Below, piece by piece: positions 23,515-30,711 of a stretch of 32,886 nucleotides of DNA (positions are counted from its first letter, which is position 1; every line of letters starts with the position of its first letter). The notes beneath the pieces were generated by a model. The model did no database searches and was not told the DNA's origin. It saw nothing but the letters and a program-made list of their open reading frames with translations. Position numbers and translations under genes: made by a program. Source of the DNA: Methanobacteriota archaeon (GTDB taxonomy: Archaea; Thermoplasmatota; Poseidoniia; Poseidoniales; Poseidoniaceae); the NCBI GenBank assembly GCA_018666575.1, contig JABIYX010000017.1, forward strand, positions 1 through 32,886. Direction: 5' to 3'.

Positions 23515-26457
23515 TTAGTCGAAGAAATCTTCGAATTCTTCTGCCATATTTGCAGTGCCCATTCGACGGTTTCGAGCAGCTATGATGCGCTTGAGTCTCT
23601 TCCTTCGCTTAACCATCATTGGTATGAGTAGTGCATTCAGTACAACGAGGATCAATGCTCCCATACCTGCATATTGAAATTCCTTGACAGTCATTGAGTC
23701 TTCTAAATCTCCAATCCAATCGATGCCGAGTGGAGGTTCAGGCGGTTCTGGTTCTTCTGGAATGATGTGTTGGTTGTAATCCCACCACTGATTCTCAATT
23801 TCCACGCGCTCTGTGTTTTCACTTGGGTATTCCGCAATAACTGCTGAATTTCCTCTTCCATCAACAGGGGAGAGGACGTAGAAGTATGTTCTTTCAGGGC
23901 GTATGCCATCTGCTTCCAAACCAGATTGATTGAATGTACCTGTTTCACCTTGGACACCACTCAGGCCAGTAGCAATCGGATTCACATACCGCAAATCAAG
24001 ACCACTAGGGCGAGTGTTAAGGCGATACATATTCCATGTTACTTCGCCGTCTGCTTCATTTTGAGGCCATGTCCAGGTGAGGTTCAATTCATAGCATGAA
24101 TTCCAGTTTTTTTGCAGGTCAAAACAAGTTGTAGAATTTGTAAATCTGTATGAATGTGTGAATGAGGATACTGTGCTTTCGGGTGCGATTGCATCTCCGC
24201 ACAACATGGAGGTGCCTTGGTCGTTCATGAACACATTGATTCGAGATAAATCCGGTACGTTAGCACGATTTGCAGGAATGAGGGCATAGGACGCACATGT
24301 TCCTGTAGGGAGCGGTTCTGGATCAACCCAATTCGAAGTGGATATAGAAACCATATCTACCAAACGTCCATCGATAAGTTGTGTCCACAAACTTTCACTA
24401 TCTTCTTCAGCAGGGTTCGGGAATACTGTTCCTCCCGTTTCGGCGACAGGTAGTTTGTAGATTTTCCAGCCTCCAAGGTACGGATTTGATATATCGCCTT
24501 CTGAAGACCATTCAAGTTCTATAGAACCACCGGATAGTTTGTTGTAAGCAGTGTCGTTGGCCGTTACATTAGCATCGGGTAACGATCCAATGAAGAGCAA
24601 TACAGTATTGCTATTTAGGCTCAATGAAATGTTTTGAATTTCGTCATACACGTAGTAATCGGGAGATTCAAGATAATCCCAATACGTTCCTGTTGAATCT
24701 GGTAGTTCAAGAATTTCTACGGAATCAAACGGAATCATGTCTGGCAGGAGTGCCGACAGGTTGATGAGAATCTCCATCGATTGGATGTCTGCTGGTTGCG
24801 TATTATCTTCAAGTTGCATTACATCCAGTTCGAGAATCATCAATGGTTCTTTACCTCCTGCAATGTTGTATTCTGATCCTTGAAGTGGCAGGTAATAATC
24901 GTACGAAAATGCAGCTTTGTCTAGGGAAACAACAGATCCGGTCATAAGAGGTTCTTCTTCAATGACGACTTCATCAATAAGTTGTATGGTCCTGAATACT
25001 TCTTCTGTATTATCAAGAGCGTCCGTGACTGTTAATCCTACAATATAGGATTTCAATGGGAATAATGATGCATTGACACTTAGGAATTGTCCATGCCCGA
25101 GTTGAATAGCAGTGTCAAGTGTCCATGTGTAGTTGAGTGGATTGGCTGCAAAATTACTCGTCAATGCGGTAAATTCGATTGTATCTGCTGTTGTAAATGT
25201 GCCTGAGACCGTATTGAGTCCTATCATTGGGTTGATTGCTCCTGCGGTTATGTCAGCATATTCAATCAATGTGTTATCCGAAGGTGCAGTGTCTGCCCGT
25301 CCATCAAATGATGTTGGCATGTAGACTCGCAACTCTTTGCCATCTCCAATCTCGACGATATCGAAGGTGCATGTGATGAACTGAGATGGTCCGAGCATAT
25401 CGATATCACACATCTCAATGTGTTCAGATTCTCCTTGTGCGTCAAACATCTCAAAGTTTACAACCGTGTTAGATATTGTGAAATTACCAATGTTTTCTAT
25501 TTTCGCGGAGATCATATCCTCGCCGTAGTAGTAAGCGGGAGACGATTGGTCATGAGACGGATACATGCTAGCGATTCGTAAATCGAGAGTATTGTCTAGA
25601 ACGATTTCAATCTGCGTGAGGTCATTGAATGAATTTAGATCTCCGTCGTAGTCGCTAGAGCTACTTATGAGTCCGAATTCGAAAATGAATCTGCCTGGCA
25701 TTGAATAATTTAAGGCAGGTAGTTCTGTTGTGAACGGCTGCTCATATCCTCCTGAAAAGAGATTTGTCACGCTTCGAGTCGCATTACTGACAAGAGTTCC
25801 ATCAAGCGTTCTTAGGTTCCATCCAATGTTTGCTACAAGATTACATGTTCCACAAGTGTTTGACACACCATAGATGTCCATGATGTACTCGACTTCGGTG
25901 TTCAATACCACTTCATTATTGTAAGTGTGTAGGCCTGAAAGAGTGTCTCTTGGATCCTGTTCCATGTCCACTGCTATGTCACTGAATTCGGCTGTTAGGT
26001 TGATGTTGTACGATAAAATATCATCACTCGTGTCTACATCTGAATTCACGAATTTGAAAACCACAGTAAAGGTGCCACTGGACCCAGACGGGAACCATCT
26101 GTTGGAATCGGAGAAGTTCCCTGATTCGCCGCTAAGTAACCCAATGACATTCATGCCGCCATTTTTGATGTTATTTGAGATGCAAGGCAGTTCGTTAAGG
26201 TCTCCTTCGCACACGTACCATTTCATGGCTCGTGAGTTTGTCAATGGACTCAATGCTTGATTTTCGACCTCTACTGAGAAGGTTATCGGATCGAATGCTG
26301 AGTAAAAGCGATCCTCGACAGGAGTCTGGCCAGACACAATTGCAAGGTCTACTTGTTCCACTGCCGATGCACTCGGTACATATGCTAGCATTGAAAATGC
26401 TGAGAAAAGCATAATGAAAACCAAGCTAATGCTCTTCTTTTTCTTGCCAACGGTCAT
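23515..26457 (-). CDS. large secreted surface protein with C-terminal membrane anchor
   Basis: 980 residues. The signal peptide follows KKKK at the N-terminus (SISLVFIMLFSAFSMLAYVPSASA). The body is beta-rich and looks like a row of Ig/CARDB/fibronectin-type domains (for example NFTISNTVVNFEMFD and TYFYVLSPVDGRGNSAV), with several Cys pairs that suggest disulfides. A Glu/Pro linker precedes a single helix (MGALILVVLNALLIPMM), then a very basic cytoplasmic segment and an acidic end (EEFEDFFD). The ATG at 26457 is chosen because it starts the signal peptide with GGAG 8 bases upstream; an in-frame start at 26502 would add 15 hydrophilic residues. No catalytic motif was seen. It may be a surface adhesin or a polymer-binding protein. 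Confidence 0.8.
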   Translation of the reverse strand: MTVGKKKKSISLVFIMLFSAFSMLAYVPSASAVEQVDLAIVSGQTPVEDRFYSAFDPITFSVEVENQALSPLTNSRAMKWYVCEGDLNELPCISNNIKNGGMNVIGLLSGESGNFSDSNRWFPSGSSGTFTVVFKFVNSDVDTSDDILSYNINLTAEFSDIAVDMEQDPRDTLSGLHTYNNEVVLNTEVEYIMDIYGVSNTCGTCNLVANIGWNLRTLDGTLVSNATRSVTNLFSGGYEQPFTTELPALNYSMPGRFIFEFGLISSSSDYDGDLNSFNDLTQIEIVLDNTLDLRIASMYPSHDQSSPAYYYGEDMISAKIENIGNFTISNTVVNFEMFDAQGESEHIEMCDIDMLGPSQFITCTFDIVEIGDGKELRVYMPTSFDGRADTAPSDNTLIEYADITAGAINPMIGLNTVSGTFTTADTIEFTALTSNFAANPLNYTWTLDTAIQLGHGQFLSVNASLFPLKSYIVGLTVTDALDNTEEVFRTIQLIDEVVIEEEPLMTGSVVSLDKAAFSYDYYLPLQGSEYNIAGGKEPLMILELDVMQLEDNTQPADIQSMEILINLSALLPDMIPFDSVEILELPDSTGTYWDYLESPDYYVYDEIQNISLSLNSNTVLLFIGSLPDANVTANDTAYNKLSGGSIELEWSSEGDISNPYLGGWKIYKLPVAETGGTVFPNPAEEDSESLWTQLIDGRLVDMVSISTSNWVDPEPLPTGTCASYALIPANRANVPDLSRINVFMNDQGTSMLCGDAIAPESTVSSFTHSYRFTNSTTCFDLQKNWNSCYELNLTWTWPQNEADGEVTWNMYRLNTRPSGLDLRYVNPIATGLSGVQGETGTFNQSGLEADGIRPERTYFYVLSPVDGRGNSAVIAEYPSENTERVEIENQWWDYNQHIIPEEPEPPEPPLGIDWIGDLEDSMTVKEFQYAGMGALILVVLNALLIPMMVKRRKRLKRIIAARNRRMGTANMAEEFEDFFD

Positions 26458-26520
26458 GCTATCCGCTCCTGTCATCATACAATGGTCGCATGGATGATTC
26501 AAAGACTCATCGATTGATTT

Positions 26521-26593: not shown

Positions 26594-27700
26594 ATGGAGG
26601 AGACTGAGCACACATGCATTCGCTCAGACGAAAGGGGGCTGACTGCTGTCATTGAATTCCTTTCTGCGTTTACACTTTTCCTCATGATTTTAACTGCCTT
26701 CATGTCTTTGGCACAACTTGAAATGGGGTCGAATGATACCGAAATCGATCAAGTCGATCAAGCCACAGTATCCGCTCTCGACCATCTGGTGGGTGGTCCT
26801 GGCTGGTTTGTTCCTGCTTTGGAAGACGGTGATTTTGATCATGCCAACGGGACCTCTGAATGGAACGTTGTAAGCGCTTCGGATTTGCAAAAAGGACGTG
26901 TTCAAACGGGACTTATTCTTGAAGGAGAACTCGATGTAAATCGTCTCAATGCATTATCTAATGTGACACTCGAATCCTTTTCAGAAGGGCTTGGTCTTGC
27001 TGAAGATCTCAGTGCTTATCTCCATATCAGTGTTCAAACTTCCACAAATACCACACGTGTGGGACTCGTTCTTTTCGAAGGAGGTTCGGATATCAACTCA
27101 GCTCGAATGGCTTCTACGGCCTCAAGTGTTGTTCGAATGTCGGGGGAACTCCTAACTGTTACCTTACAAGTTCATGATGCAGGGAGGCAAAGTGAGAATC
27201 TCGTAATAACAGAAGTCATGGTTCGCCCGATAGGAGGGGGGCCTGAGTGGATTGAAGTTTACAACGATAATTCCTTTGCAACAAGCCTCTATGGATGGTC
27301 TCTAAACGTAACATCTCCGAGTGCTACCAACAATGTTCTATTCCAAAGTGGTGTCATAACCGGTCATTCTATTGCATTATTTACTGGCTCAGTTTCATCT
27401 CAAGTACAAGGTAATGCGACACAAATAATTGATTTGGGAACGTTTGGAATCCTTGGTACGGGCTCTATGAATCTGCTCGATGATGGTAGCAGTGTGATGG
27501 AATTACGATTTACGCGTCCTAGTCAAACGAAACCACTTCCAAACTCTCGAGCCGAGTGGGGCGGTCAGACAGGGCTGTTACTTGGAATAAACAACGCACT
27601 TGTTTGGGACGGTGGCAGCCCACTAAACTCTGCTTCATGGAGTGTTAATCAAGTAGCAACACCGGGCGACGTGCCTTCTAGCGTAACAAATGCTTCATGA
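26594..27700 (+). CDS. pilin-like N-terminus fused to a lamin-tail (LTD) domain, exported
   Basis: 368 residues. After 12 hydrophilic residues the sequence ERGLTAVIEFLSAFTLFLMI (13-32) gives a charged-Gly-hydrophobic step, then a long hydrophobic helix with an early Glu. This resembles the class III signal and helix of archaeal type IV pilins. The middle is a Thr/Ser-rich beta region. From about residue 200, NLVITEVMVRPIGGGPEWIE, then VYNDNSFATSLYGWSLNV, matches lamin-tail domains, beta-sandwiches found on many secreted proteins. GGTGAT (26585-26590) precedes the ATG. It is followed after 20 bases by the KaiC-like gene and heads that apparent operon. A simple N-terminal membrane anchor is the alternative to a processed pilin. 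Confidence 0.7.
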   Translation: MEETEHTCIRSDERGLTAVIEFLSAFTLFLMILTAFMSLAQLEMGSNDTEIDQVDQATVSALDHLVGGPGWFVPALEDGDFDHANGTSEWNVVSASDLQKGRVQTGLILEGELDVNRLNALSNVTLESFSEGLGLAEDLSAYLHISVQTSTNTTRVGLVLFEGGSDINSARMASTASSVVRMSGELLTVTLQVHDAGRQSENLVITEVMVRPIGGGPEWIEVYNDNSFATSLYGWSLNVTSPSATNNVLFQSGVITGHSIALFTGSVSSQVQGNATQIIDLGTFGILGTGSMNLLDDGSSVMELRFTRPSQTKPLPNSRAEWGGQTGLLLGINNALVWDGGSPLNSASWSVNQVATPGDVPSSVTNAS

Positions 27701-27720
27701 ACTCGGTGGCACTGGGATAG

Positions 27721-28509
27721 ATGATACCCGTGCAGGCTGCTTCCACTTATTCACGAGACCGTTGTGTAACAGGCATCCATGGATTGGATGAAATTCTGCG
27801 AGGTGGCATCCCCTATGGTTCCACGGTTTTGGCCTCGGGAACATGTGGTTCTGGAAAAACCACCTTGGCAATGGAATTCCTCGTCCGTGGTGCTCTTGCA
27901 GGCGAAGCTTGTGCTCACTTTACAGCAACTGAGCCTTCGGTAAAACTTCTTGAAAACATTCGACAATATGCATTCTTTGACATGAATATGGTTGATACAG
28001 GTTTGATCAACGTATTTGACATGGACGTTTTGTATTCTTGGTTAGGGCTCGATAAATCTACCTTCGACTTGGATGACGTTCACGCCTTGATTAAATCAAT
28101 TACCGATATTGTCAACACAATCGGCGTTACACGATTGGTTATCGATTCAGTTACGACACTTTGTTACAAAATTAAATCTGAACAACTTATTCGAGATTTC
28201 TTGTTTACACTTGGAAAGAAACTCGCAACTCTTGGTTGTACAACCATTCTCATATCTGAAATCACATCAGCCACTGAGAATGCTCACTGGTCATCTTTCG
28301 GTGTAGAAGAGGCGATTGCAGACGGGATTGTTGTCATGGGTGACGTTGAACGTATGGGTCACTTACTGAGATTCTTGCAGGTTGTCAAAATGCGTGGTAC
28401 ATCCCATAGTCGTGCAAAACACGCTATCGAACTAACGCCACTTGGCGTCATGCTTACGCCTATGTTGAAATGGGGCTCGCAAAACGAAAACGCTCACTGG
28501 GGTGCCTGA
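27721..28509 (+). CDS. KaiC/RadA-family ATPase with single intact RecA domain
   Basis: 262 residues, one RecA-like domain. The start VTGIHGLDEILRGGIPYGST is the KaiC-type N-terminal signature. Walker A is GTCGSGKT (40-47), and Walker B is RLVIDSVTTL (138-147). A C-terminal strand pattern (RFLQVVKMRGTSHSRAKHAI, then ELTPLGVML) matches KaiC-like and ArlH-like proteins. It binds ATP and probably acts as a regulatory switch rather than a motor; the substrate is unknown. The next two genes have the same fold but no P-loop. The pilin-like gene upstream recalls ArlH (FlaH) in archaella, but no ArlI/ArlJ is present here. Confidence 0.85.
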   Translation: MIPVQAASTYSRDRCVTGIHGLDEILRGGIPYGSTVLASGTCGSGKTTLAMEFLVRGALAGEACAHFTATEPSVKLLENIRQYAFFDMNMVDTGLINVFDMDVLYSWLGLDKSTFDLDDVHALIKSITDIVNTIGVTRLVIDSVTTLCYKIKSEQLIRDFLFTLGKKLATLGCTTILISEITSATENAHWSSFGVEEAIADGIVVMGDVERMGHLLRFLQVVKMRGTSHSRAKHAIELTPLGVMLTPMLKWGSQNENAHWGA

Positions 28510-28511
28510 AT

Positions 28512-29096
28512 ATGTTTGAACTTGACCAAAGAATCGCTGAACAACTCTCGACTATCTCGCTCAACAGCGCAGTACAAGTTCGCTGTGGTAACTCAAATGC
28601 CTTCATGGTTACTGCAAGCACAATGCTTCCATTGATGCAGATGTTTGAGATGGGTGGAGTCTACATCACTGCAAGTCGTGGTGCTGTTGAGATCATTCAG
28701 GCCTTCGAATCAATCGGTGTTGATGTTTCGAATATCCAATTCATTGACCTTGTTTCTTCTGGAATTTTAGGAGGTACAGATGTTGCCTATCCCAACATCC
28801 ACTTTGTCGATAGCCCGATTATGCTGGAATCAGTACTTCTCCGCACATTGTACATTTTGCGAACAACCTCTTCAGCAAGAAATTTCGTATTCATCGACAG
28901 CGTAAATGCGCTTGCAATTTACAACGAGGATCGGATGCTTGCTGAGTATCTTCACACTTTCATCAACACGTTTAGGCAAAGAGAAGTTCTTTCAATTATC
29001 CTTAACGTTCCCGACCAAACACCTCCATTGGTTCTCTCGAACCTTGATTTGTATTGTACAGATCTTGTTGATCGTGGGCAAGTGGTCATCCATTGA
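28512..29096 (+). CDS. KaiC-fold protein lacking the Walker A motif
   Basis: 194 residues. It aligns by eye with the preceding ATPase: YITASRGAVEIIQAFESIGV matches the strand-helix after the P-loop, NFVFIDSVNALAI (about 124-136) keeps a Walker B-like Asp, and the following helix-strand (RMLAEYLHTFINTFRQREVL) also fits. At the P-loop position, CGNSNAFMVTAS has neither Gly-rich loop nor GK(T/S), so ATP hydrolysis is unlikely. The ATG at 28512 comes 2 bases after the upstream stop. A pseudo-ATPase partner of its neighbours is the likely role, inferred from fold and operon. Confidence 0.7.
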   Translation: MFELDQRIAEQLSTISLNSAVQVRCGNSNAFMVTASTMLPLMQMFEMGGVYITASRGAVEIIQAFESIGVDVSNIQFIDLVSSGILGGTDVAYPNIHFVDSPIMLESVLLRTLYILRTTSSARNFVFIDSVNALAIYNEDRMLAEYLHTFINTFRQREVLSIILNVPDQTPPLVLSNLDLYCTDLVDRGQVVIH

Positions 29097-29108
29097 TGAG
29101 GGATTAAG

Positions 29109-29912
29109 ATGAAGAAGAAGATTACATTCGATGAGGAAGATGAAGAATTCTTCGGACAAGTCGGCTCTTTTGGAGTCCCCAAGTTCGATGGTGAAATGAA
29201 CGGAGGAGTCCCTCGCGGATTTACGATGGTTGCGTTTACTGAAACGGGTTCCGGTGCTGAACTCTTCGCAAAGCAGTACGTGTCTCCTGCTGAAGAATCC
29301 GAAAATACACTTTATGTCTCAACCAATGAAGGACAACCAGAGATTGTTCGTGTGTTCAAGAAATACGGATGGCCTCTCGACATCAACGTTCGAACAATTG
29401 GCGAGGAATACAATTCAAATGTTCTCGAACGAGAGCTTTTAGCGAGCCGTTATCGCCTCGAAGGGTTCCGTTTAGAGGATATTCAACGACTTGCACAGAC
29501 TCGTTTCGTAGATGAGAATAACCAAGACTACCTCACAGAAGTGACCAATGAAATCATGGCTTTAGGACCATACTTCAGAGCAGCTATTGACAGTCTTGAT
29601 TTCTTCTTGCAACGTGATGATCCAAATCGGGTTGTTGCAATGATTCGTATGTTACAAGCACACACACAAATGTACCGTGGGCTTCTTTTAATCAGCGTTT
29701 CAGTCAATGGTTTGTCTCCTTCGATACGACAAGAACTTGCAAGTATTGCGGATATGGTACTGACCTTCGGAGTACGTACGATTGGTTCTGATTTCGAAAC
29801 ATCGATGATTGTATCAAAATTCAGAAACGCTCCTGAGAATCTGAAGATGTTGGTTTTCCGTGTTACTCCAGAAGAGGGTATTACGCCAGAAACAGTCGAG
29901 CGTATCGCTTGA
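29109..29912 (+). CDS. KaiC-fold protein with degenerate P-loop, third member of the cluster
   Basis: 267 residues. After an acidic N-terminus (EEDEEFF), FGVPKFDGEMNGGVPRGFTM (21-40) matches the KaiC start. The P-loop position reads TETGSGAE (44-51), where GKT is replaced by GAE, so the catalytic Lys and Thr are lost. A Walker B-like stretch FRAAIDSLDFFL and the final strands (IVSKFRNAPENLKMLVFRVT, then PEEGITPE) are retained. An additional roughly 45-residue helical segment lies before the Walker B region. It follows the second member by 12 bases. Three KaiC-fold proteins in a row, one active and two inactive, suggest a hetero-oligomer. Confidence 0.7.
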   Translation: MKKKITFDEEDEEFFGQVGSFGVPKFDGEMNGGVPRGFTMVAFTETGSGAELFAKQYVSPAEESENTLYVSTNEGQPEIVRVFKKYGWPLDINVRTIGEEYNSNVLERELLASRYRLEGFRLEDIQRLAQTRFVDENNQDYLTEVTNEIMALGPYFRAAIDSLDFFLQRDDPNRVVAMIRMLQAHTQMYRGLLLISVSVNGLSPSIRQELASIADMVLTFGVRTIGSDFETSMIVSKFRNAPENLKMLVFRVTPEEGITPETVERIA

Positions 29913-29967
29913 AGTTGTTTACTGGTCGAAGCGACACCTCCAAAGAGGGCGAAGCCTGCCATCAGCC

Positions 29968-30711
29968 ATGTCAAGTCGTGCAGCAACGGGTGGTTACGAC
30001 CCATCTGGAATTGATTTGGATGCTTGGACAGAGTTGGAAGAGCAACTCGAAGCAACCATTCCTGATTACGACAGAGTAAATCGATTAATGACATTCGGTC
30101 AAGACAAACGCTGGAGGCGTAATGTTCGCAATCATGCCTCAAAGGGCATGAAAATTCTCGAAGTAGGATGTGGACCAGGGAGCTTTGCCGAAGATCTCGT
30201 GGGACTAGACGTGACTTGTCTCGATCCGTCTGAAGAAATGCTCAAAGTTGCCAAAAAGCGAGTTGATGCTGCACGCAAAGAGCGTGGAGAATCACCTGCA
30301 GCATATGTCCAAGCAATTGCTGAAGAGATTCCATTGGAAGACAATTCCTTCGACATGGTATTCTGCCTCTTTTCATTCCGTGACTTTCAGGATAAGAAAA
30401 AAGGACTTGAAGAAATATTCCGTGTCCTCAAGCCAGGTGGACAGTTGGTGATGTGTGATGCTGGGAAGGCAAACGCACTTCATGGCTTGGCCGGCAGAAT
30501 TTGGATGAGTACGATGGTTCAATGGATGGCTCGTTGGGTCACGAAGACCAAAGATCACCCATGGAAAGGGCTCGCAAGATCCTACACGCATTACGGTACG
30601 AACAAATATTATCGGAATATGATGATAGAAGTGGGCTTTGAAAATGTTTCAGGCCGACTGCTGTATCCATTCCTAATGTCGAGCAGATTCCGTGGGAAAA
30701 AACCAATTTGA
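29968..30711 (+). CDS. UbiE/MenG-like SAM-dependent C-methyltransferase
   Basis: 247 residues. DYDRVNRLMTFGQDKRWRR (33-51) is the UbiE/MenG family signature near the N-terminus. SAM motif I is ILEVGCGPGSFAE (63-75), post-I is VTCLDPSEEML, motif II region is SFDMVFCLFSFRD, and motif III is RVLKPGGQLVMCD. In this family the reaction is C-methylation of a demethylated quinone, at the last step of menaquinone or ubiquinone synthesis. A menaquinone role would fit a respiring archaeon, but other small-molecule methyltransferases share these motifs. No other quinone gene is nearby. The ATG at 29968 is chosen because it starts just before the conserved region; no strong ribosome binding site is visible. 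Confidence 0.75.
   Translation: MSSRAATGGYDPSGIDLDAWTELEEQLEATIPDYDRVNRLMTFGQDKRWRRNVRNHASKGMKILEVGCGPGSFAEDLVGLDVTCLDPSEEMLKVAKKRVDAARKERGESPAAYVQAIAEEIPLEDNSFDMVFCLFSFRDFQDKKKGLEEIFRVLKPGGQLVMCDAGKANALHGLAGRIWMSTMVQWMARWVTKTKDHPWKGLARSYTHYGTNKYYRNMMIEVGFENVSGRLLYPFLMSSRFRGKKPI

Follow-up and report, generated by a model that had tools for sequence, protein, structure and literature searches.

Several described systems resemble the one analysed here, a set of three KaiC-type genes in a 32,886-nucleotide stretch of archaeal DNA (the window; contig JABIYX010000017.1 of assembly GCA_018666575.1, family Poseidoniaceae, phylum Thermoplasmatota). Cyanobacterial KaiC consists of two fused RecA-fold domains (CI-CII) with a P-loop and a K-x-R element, the latter acting in trans on the ATP of the neighbouring subunit. 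ArlH (FlaH), which has one KaiC domain and belongs to a type IV filament system, acts as the KaiC-type switch known from the archaellum, and GvpD is a KaiC-type regulator in haloarchaea thought to control expression or stability. Elp456 of the eukaryotic Elongator, which serves tRNA modification, is a ring built of three different RecA-fold paralogues. The switching of archaeal type IV pili is poorly known, and section 16 of PMC4858521 offers, within that section, predicted regulators only: KaiC families associated with these pili, for which regulation is predicted, and FleN/MinD-like ATPases, often encoded apart from the machinery, which are proposed as general pilus regulators. In the available part of PMC5847659, archaeal KaiC-like signalling proteins comprise KaiC ATPases together with inactivated KaiC domains ('iKaiC') that serve as signalling parts.

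The window carries four co-directional genes, here named A to D, at positions 26594-29912, with intergenic gaps of 20, 2 and 12 bases (Table 1). A first-pass annotation had described this layout, which ORF calls confirmed, and had proposed that one active KaiC-type ATPase (B) and two inactive KaiC-fold proteins (C and D), encoded beside an exported pilin-like protein (A), form a hetero-oligomeric switch linked to the cell surface, resembling ArlH and unlike any described system. Compared with ArlH, there are three paralogues here, two of them without an ATP site, and they go with pili and pilins rather than with ArlI. Cyanobacterial KaiC differs in its two fused domains, the present proteins being single-domain products of three genes, two of them inactive. 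The iKaiC proteins differ in that B, C and D form a fixed operon with complementary motif losses over the phylum; FleN/MinD-like ATPases belong to another P-loop family, and no descent from Elongator is claimed. KaiC and iKaiC regulators are already known as a kind; the present set stands out by how clearly the two halves of the ATP site are divided among its members, and its link to pili is well supported. The claim of novelty therefore needs narrowing, since KaiC proteins near archaeal pili and inactivated KaiC domains are both in print; neither the B-C-D set nor its three-part division of labour was found described in a literature survey whose scope did not extend to the main archaeal KaiC hub paper (Makarova et al. 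2017, mBio).

Conservation and gene order of B, C and D

Of the 292 genomes of the phylum, 181 were matched by a profile of C, in 139 cases with E 1e-25 or better; in a separate search C was matched in 126 of the 194 genomes in the class Poseidoniia. The phylum-wide search did not find C in family f27, which we take to hold the Thermoplasmatales (families, genera, genomes, contigs and loci carry our own labels, f, g, G, C and L). Patterns of 7 sequences yielded 173 relatives from named species genomes, the best 80 of which (the named loci) lean toward the clades of those sequences. These best 80 of 173 are titled Thermoplasmata, Thermoplasmatota, Methanomassiliicoccales, Aciduliprofundum, DHVE2, Haladaptatiplasma or unplaced Euryarchaeota, apart from one 'bacterium' and one 'archaeon'; metagenome-assembled genomes (MAGs) named Aciduliprofundum carry C (L175, L176).

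The order B-C-D was found in 28 of the 30 loci L008-L037, all of family f1 and including the window's own, and the remaining two end at contig edges. It was also found in 60 of the 80 named loci, 55 by script and 5 in which the script saw C-D and B is present, hidden by an over-long C frame. The rest comprise 3 edge-cut loci, 16 scored by the script as lacking D (although L131 does show D), and L184, with a fused frame. Among the first 40 loci D is present by construction in the 36 that were picked through a D match, and 5 of the 40 gave no C. The three genes mostly overlap or lie a few bases apart, with gaps mostly between -50 and +30 bases. Over 89 distinct sets the three proteins have distance matrices that agree (r 0.89, 0.74 and 0.86; maximum of 1000 permutations, 0.30), as would be expected from joint vertical inheritance. 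B-C-D, which is older than the four-gene set A-B-C-D, is a real, ancient, phylum-wide module of the Thermoplasmatota; in some lineages the conserved unit is B-C alone.

Two loci show unusual arrangements. In L184 (1-1275) B and C share one open frame of 424 aa in which the N-terminus of C is missing, pointing to either a fusion or an assembly deletion. In L222 (5485-13372, genome G274) a 1064 aa protein with two KaiC domains is flanked by four C-like genes and another KaiC gene; this cluster is an expanded paralogous module.

ATP-site motifs and predicted folds

The Pfam scan placed a single KaiC stretch (PF06745, cut-off 26.6 bits) in each of the three proteins. D scored 57.9 bits and C 26.1, just below the cut-off, or 27.3 with its neighbours in frame; the score of B is in Table 1. 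B also matched KaiC (1u9i) at 141.8 bits, its assignment to the family being made by sequence only.

Motifs were counted in the 89 distinct sets. In B the P-loop Lys and Thr are retained wherever they could be scored (Table 1), and the Walker B Asp and K-x-R-G in all 89. D has lost the P-loop Lys in 83 of 88 sets and carries Glu at the place of the Thr in 76 of 88 (Asp in 4), with Asp (67/87) or Asn (20/87) at the Walker B position. Its K-x-R is nevertheless retained, with the Lys kept in 85/86 and Arg or Lys as third residue in 85/86, and the profile alignment puts it opposite the K-x-R of KaiC. C has GxxxxGK[ST] in none of the 89 sets (L105 is partly masked). It shows a Walker-B-like motif, DS(V/I/L)(N/S/T), in 85/89 and the motif SPxxLE in 88/89, and the string K-x-R-G occurs in 11 of the 89 C proteins, never at the hairpin position. 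Because the P-loop losses in C and D are seen across 89 distinct sets, they are not errors of a single MAG. The pattern of one active and two inactive proteins read from the window is kept over the phylum: a working Walker A is present in B and not in C or, in those 83 sets, in D. Fold and descent, rather than ATPase activity, place C and D in the KaiC family, and both have what defines an iKaiC, a KaiC fold with a lost ATP site. A C-labelled gene of L075 (9284-9970; outside the 89 sets, though within a smaller group of 37 loci), with no adjoining B or D, carries an intact P-loop, GQAMIGKS; it is probably another member of the KaiC family.

The C profile matched no PDB sequence at E 0.01, so that the fold assignment of C rests on its AlphaFold model (pLDDT 88.4, pTM 0.86; for D, 89.9 and 0.86). 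Structure matches were those ranked by Foldseek, a list in which the absence of a structure proves nothing. The best KaiC-family match of the C model was 2dr3 (Z 16.8, rmsd 3.0 over 179 residues), and Elp456 chains were matched at Z 14.8 and 14.7. The C model aligned with KaiC CI residues 24-213 only, stopping before the K-x-R hairpin. The D model matched KaiC 7s65 at Z 24.6 (rmsd 2.3 over 207 residues). Foldseek concurs with the assignment, and both proteins are thus predicted to have KaiC folds rather than an unrelated one, as had been supposed.

At the sequence level C barely resembles B or D (hhalign probabilities 9.8% and 16.8%), and D is absent in some lineages. This would suit a situation in which there is no single complex, C and D being degenerate paralogues that persist independently for other binding functions. 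The fixed order, overlapping genes and correlated divergence of the three argue otherwise, as do the K-x-R retained by D and the fused B-C frame of L184, though the latter may be an assembly artefact. We regard independent roles as quite improbable.

Pilin genes adjoining the module

When genes flanking 129 loci (including duplicates, e.g. L203 of L084) were clustered, the top cluster was that of archaeal type IV pilins, identified by a Pilin_N match on two members. It was present in 44 of the 129 loci (a few of them duplicates), in every case downstream and on the same strand. A non-redundant set was then derived, in which 138 loci were reduced to 95 by requiring a strong C and discarding loci in which it was over 90% identical; 75 of these had at least 1.5 kb of downstream DNA and 88 at least 1.5 kb upstream. 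Within 2.5 kb downstream, 36 of the 75 had a Pilin_N pilin on the same strand and 0 of 75 had one on the opposite strand; upstream, on either strand, the count was 0 of 88. Genomes positive for Pilin_N hold only 1-9 such genes each. In L219 the end of a C gene is separated by 7 bases from a pilus ATPase/TadC operon in convergent orientation. A precedent for pilin loci separate from the machinery is the Thermoplasmatales pilus, whose pilins, in the available part of PMC12448462, are encoded approximately 500 kbp away from it.

The module might instead be a general KaiC/iKaiC signalling hub with pilins as one of several outputs. Its neighbours do differ by lineage (a HerA-like ATPase, HPS/RraA, MFS), and in six loci a MetOD1/ATC-hydrolase-like protein, a possible input domain, lies between C and D. 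The adjacency of pilins is strictly one-sided, however, and the presence of the module tracks pili separately in the Poseidoniales and in family f17 (see below); we consider such a hub improbable.

Co-occurrence with pilus and archaellum genes

Besides the ArlH and ArlI genes on contig C110, the genome of the window (which is its contig C50) has further T2SSE-family ATPases on contigs C65, C66 and C163. The one on C66 belongs to a pilus operon (L199:1729-6722) that also holds a TadC-like gene, a gene of 515 aa, and genes for two small pilin-like proteins of 146 and 151 aa with weak DUF7262/DUF7261 matches. Co-occurrence counts are given below as both / first only / second only / neither; absences are unsure because MAGs are incomplete, and totals for family f2 were obtained by subtraction.

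In the 194 Poseidoniia genomes, with thresholds of our own choosing (pilus ATPase at E below about 1e-140, ArlI by high identity), C and the C66-type pilus ATPase gave 117/9/4/64, and 33/1/4/63 without family f1. Phylum-wide, with C at E < 1e-25 and the pilus ATPase at E < 1e-100, the counts were 130/9/69/84, and strong C against Pilin_N gave 135/4/77/76. The Poseidoniales genomes listed without Pilin_N are also listed without C. Among the 25 listed genomes of f17 only G297 has a strong pilus ATPase match; it is also the sole f17 genome with pilins and with a match to C (weak, E 2.3e-22). The proposed link to the cell surface is borne out by this co-occurrence as well as by the adjoining pilins.

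These observations bear on whether the module acts on pilin genes or products instead of the assembly machine, controlling pilin gene expression or pilin stability in the manner of GvpD or CirA. The module adjoins pilin genes rather than the ATPase/TadC operon, and in the available part of PMC13286277 the KaiC-like CirA affects motility and cell shape in Haloferax. The pilus ATPase association is genome-wide, however, and in the Pfam scan no DNA-binding domain was found near the curated cut-off in B, C or D. Control of this kind is fairly unlikely.

For the archaellum the picture is different. Outside family f1, C and ArlI showed no association (7/27/16/51, p 0.81). Genera g13 and g20 have ArlI and neither C nor the C66-type pilus ATPase; the reverse holds in g16, g21 (one genome) and family f3, where C and the C66-type ATPase occur and ArlI is missing. 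As had been noted from the window, no ArlI or ArlJ gene is nearby. Searches with the genome's ArlI and ArlJ (phmmer) gave no close match in the B-C-D loci, the weaker cross-matches being to the pilus genes of L219 only. A variant of ArlH regulating the archaellum could still be considered on the likeness of D, whose top NCBIfam match is ArlH (NF052589, 47.4 bits) and whose model can be superposed on FlaH/ArlH 4yds along almost its entire length (Z 24.2, rmsd 2.5 over 213). The comparison with ArlH suggested by the first-pass annotation went against this: the cut-off is 215 bits, B scored 35.7 and no match was listed for C. The genome has a separate ArlH-ArlI pair, and the D profile resembles B (hhalign 96.5%) more than it does the ArlH of this genome (15%), which also makes D a weak candidate for an ArlH paralogue. 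With the split among g13, g20, g16, g21 and f3 and no ArlI link outside f1, the archaellum connection was rejected, and we give an ArlH variant hardly any credence. The likeness to ArlH stands for the fold of D; the probable partner is the type IV pilus. That the module is linked to type IV pili, not to the archaellum, is well supported.

A proposed switch for type IV pili

By analogy with ArlH in archaella, we propose that B, C and D form a hetero-oligomeric KaiC switch that controls type IV pili, a reading to which we assign a probability of roughly 0.55. The three proteins would have arisen by duplication of a KaiC ATPase followed by division of labour. Because of their pattern of P-loop and K-x-R, B could form a full active site, binding and hydrolysing ATP; D would be unable to bind ATP, its retained Lys and Arg being able to complete the site of a neighbouring B from the side; and C, having neither element, could serve only as a structural cap, an adaptor or a break in the ring. 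Most likely the three would assemble into one RecA-fold oligomer of mixed subunits, such as two copies of B-C-D; its ATP state would control the pilus, in the way that ArlI of the archaellum is controlled by ArlH. The control might act on the assembly ATPase, or it might act on particular pilins, namely A in Poseidoniales and Pilin_N pilins in other lineages. A more specific version, in which the module is the pilus counterpart of ArlH, B holding ATP, an ATP-blind D supplying the trans finger and C setting the register or docking to the pilus, is put forward tentatively.

Several observations weigh against a switch of this kind. In 39 of the 75 non-redundant loci, that of the window included, no Pilin_N pilin lies within 2.5 kb downstream, and the neighbours there are unrelated. 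Pilus machinery genes occur in one C locus only, L219, and its ATPase is not that genome's best match to the C66 type. In 15-16 of the 80 named loci, and in several extra ones, B-C occurs without D, often with pilins adjoining, so that D is dispensable there; in 5 of 88 sets, moreover, D keeps the P-loop Lys. The relation to pili is one-way, as pilus-positive lineages without C exist (f27, f21, f23). Over all 194 Poseidoniia genomes C is associated with ArlI too (96/30/16/52, p 1e-12), an association carried by f1, which has everything. Finally, the phylum-wide thresholds scored 42 of the 181 C matches, those that are weak, as absent, and the Fisher tests on co-occurrence disregard shared ancestry.

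Protein A and other neighbouring genes

Protein A is predicted to be pilin-like by its N-terminal helix alone; neither it nor its five homologues match Pilin_N (PF07790). The lamin-tail domain (LTD) that had been read in A falls below the Pfam cut-off of 34.3 bits in the window (30.1 bits, E 6.7e-7) and exceeds it in three of the five homologues (L105, 42.3 bits; L107, 35.0; L077, 44.3), those of L104 and L106 remaining below. A immediately precedes B on the same strand, at a spacing of -70 to +108 bases, in 29 of the 30 f1 loci; in the remaining one, L011, the contig ends there. It is also upstream of B in two loci of a second Poseidoniales family (L106, L107), and L077, of another family, has a homologue of A-like make-up in that place. 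L106 holds both A and a Pilin_N pilin. B, C and D do stay together phylum-wide, the four-gene set being limited to the loci just given. A was accordingly rejected as a universal partner of the module, the flank clusters placing it only in the window, L104-L107 and L077.

Table 1. Coordinates of the four genes and their ATP-site motifs in the window
Feature	Position	Strand	Evidence
A, pilin-like exported protein with lamin-tail domain, 368 aa; N-terminal hydrophobic helix ERGLTAVIEFLSAFTLFLMILTAF	26594..27700	+	ORF and profile matches
B, active KaiC-family ATPase, 262 aa	27721..28509	+	PF06745, 177.8 bits
B, intact P-loop GTCGSGKT	27838..27861	+	Lys and Thr kept in 87/87 scorable of 89 sets
B, K-x-R (KMR) within KMRGTSH motif, counterpart of KaiC K-x-R	28387..28395	+	89/89 sets
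C, short KaiC-fold protein, 194 aa, without P-loop, N-terminal GLD motif and K-x-R hairpin	28512..29096	+	
C, CGNSNAFM at the place of the P-loop	28584..28607	+	sequence
D, full-length KaiC fold with degenerate P-loop, 267 aa	29109..29912	+	profile and model
D, degenerate P-loop TETGSGAE (Lys to Ala, Thr to Glu)	29238..29261	+	
D, retained K-x-R (KFR), aligning with KaiC K-x-R	29817..29825	+	profile alignment

Divergent from A, positions 23515-26502 (-) encode a 995 aa protein with an apparent signal peptide and a C-terminal membrane anchor, for which no Pfam match was found; L104, L105 and L107 have divergent genes of similar size in the same place. Directly 3' to D on the same strand is a methyltransferase-like gene (29860-30711), the L105 counterpart of which matches UbiE.

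The protein inserted between C and D belongs to one cluster in all six loci (L073:3751-4875, L077:5285-6400, L093, L094, L095 and L099) and comes in two sizes, 186-190 aa and 371-374 aa, the larger apparently a double unit. The Pfam matches, MetOD1 and ATC_hydrolase, were obtained for L073 only, and none for the members in L094 and L095. In the available part of PMC5847659, MetOD1 is related to the V4R and HNOB domains. It is possible that this protein is a ligand-sensing signal input of the module.

Three groups of neighbours were not counted as partners. A HerA/DUF87-like ATPase (mostly about 770-940 aa), co-directional and upstream of B in 19 loci (L087, L090, L092, L101 and L102 among them), is lineage-limited; the HPS/RraA neighbours of 35 loci are on the divergent strand; and some flank clusters (for example cluster 10 and members of cluster 9) were ignored as apparent spurious frames in GC-rich DNA.

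Implications

A phylum-wide, pilus-associated module with complementary losses in its ATP sites provides concrete, testable candidates for the control of archaeal type IV pili. If the proposed switch is correct, B-C-D would offer a clear example from nature of how a homo-oligomeric ATPase becomes a ring with specialised inactive subunits, and would give the archaea a three-paralogue RecA ring with a full division of labour.

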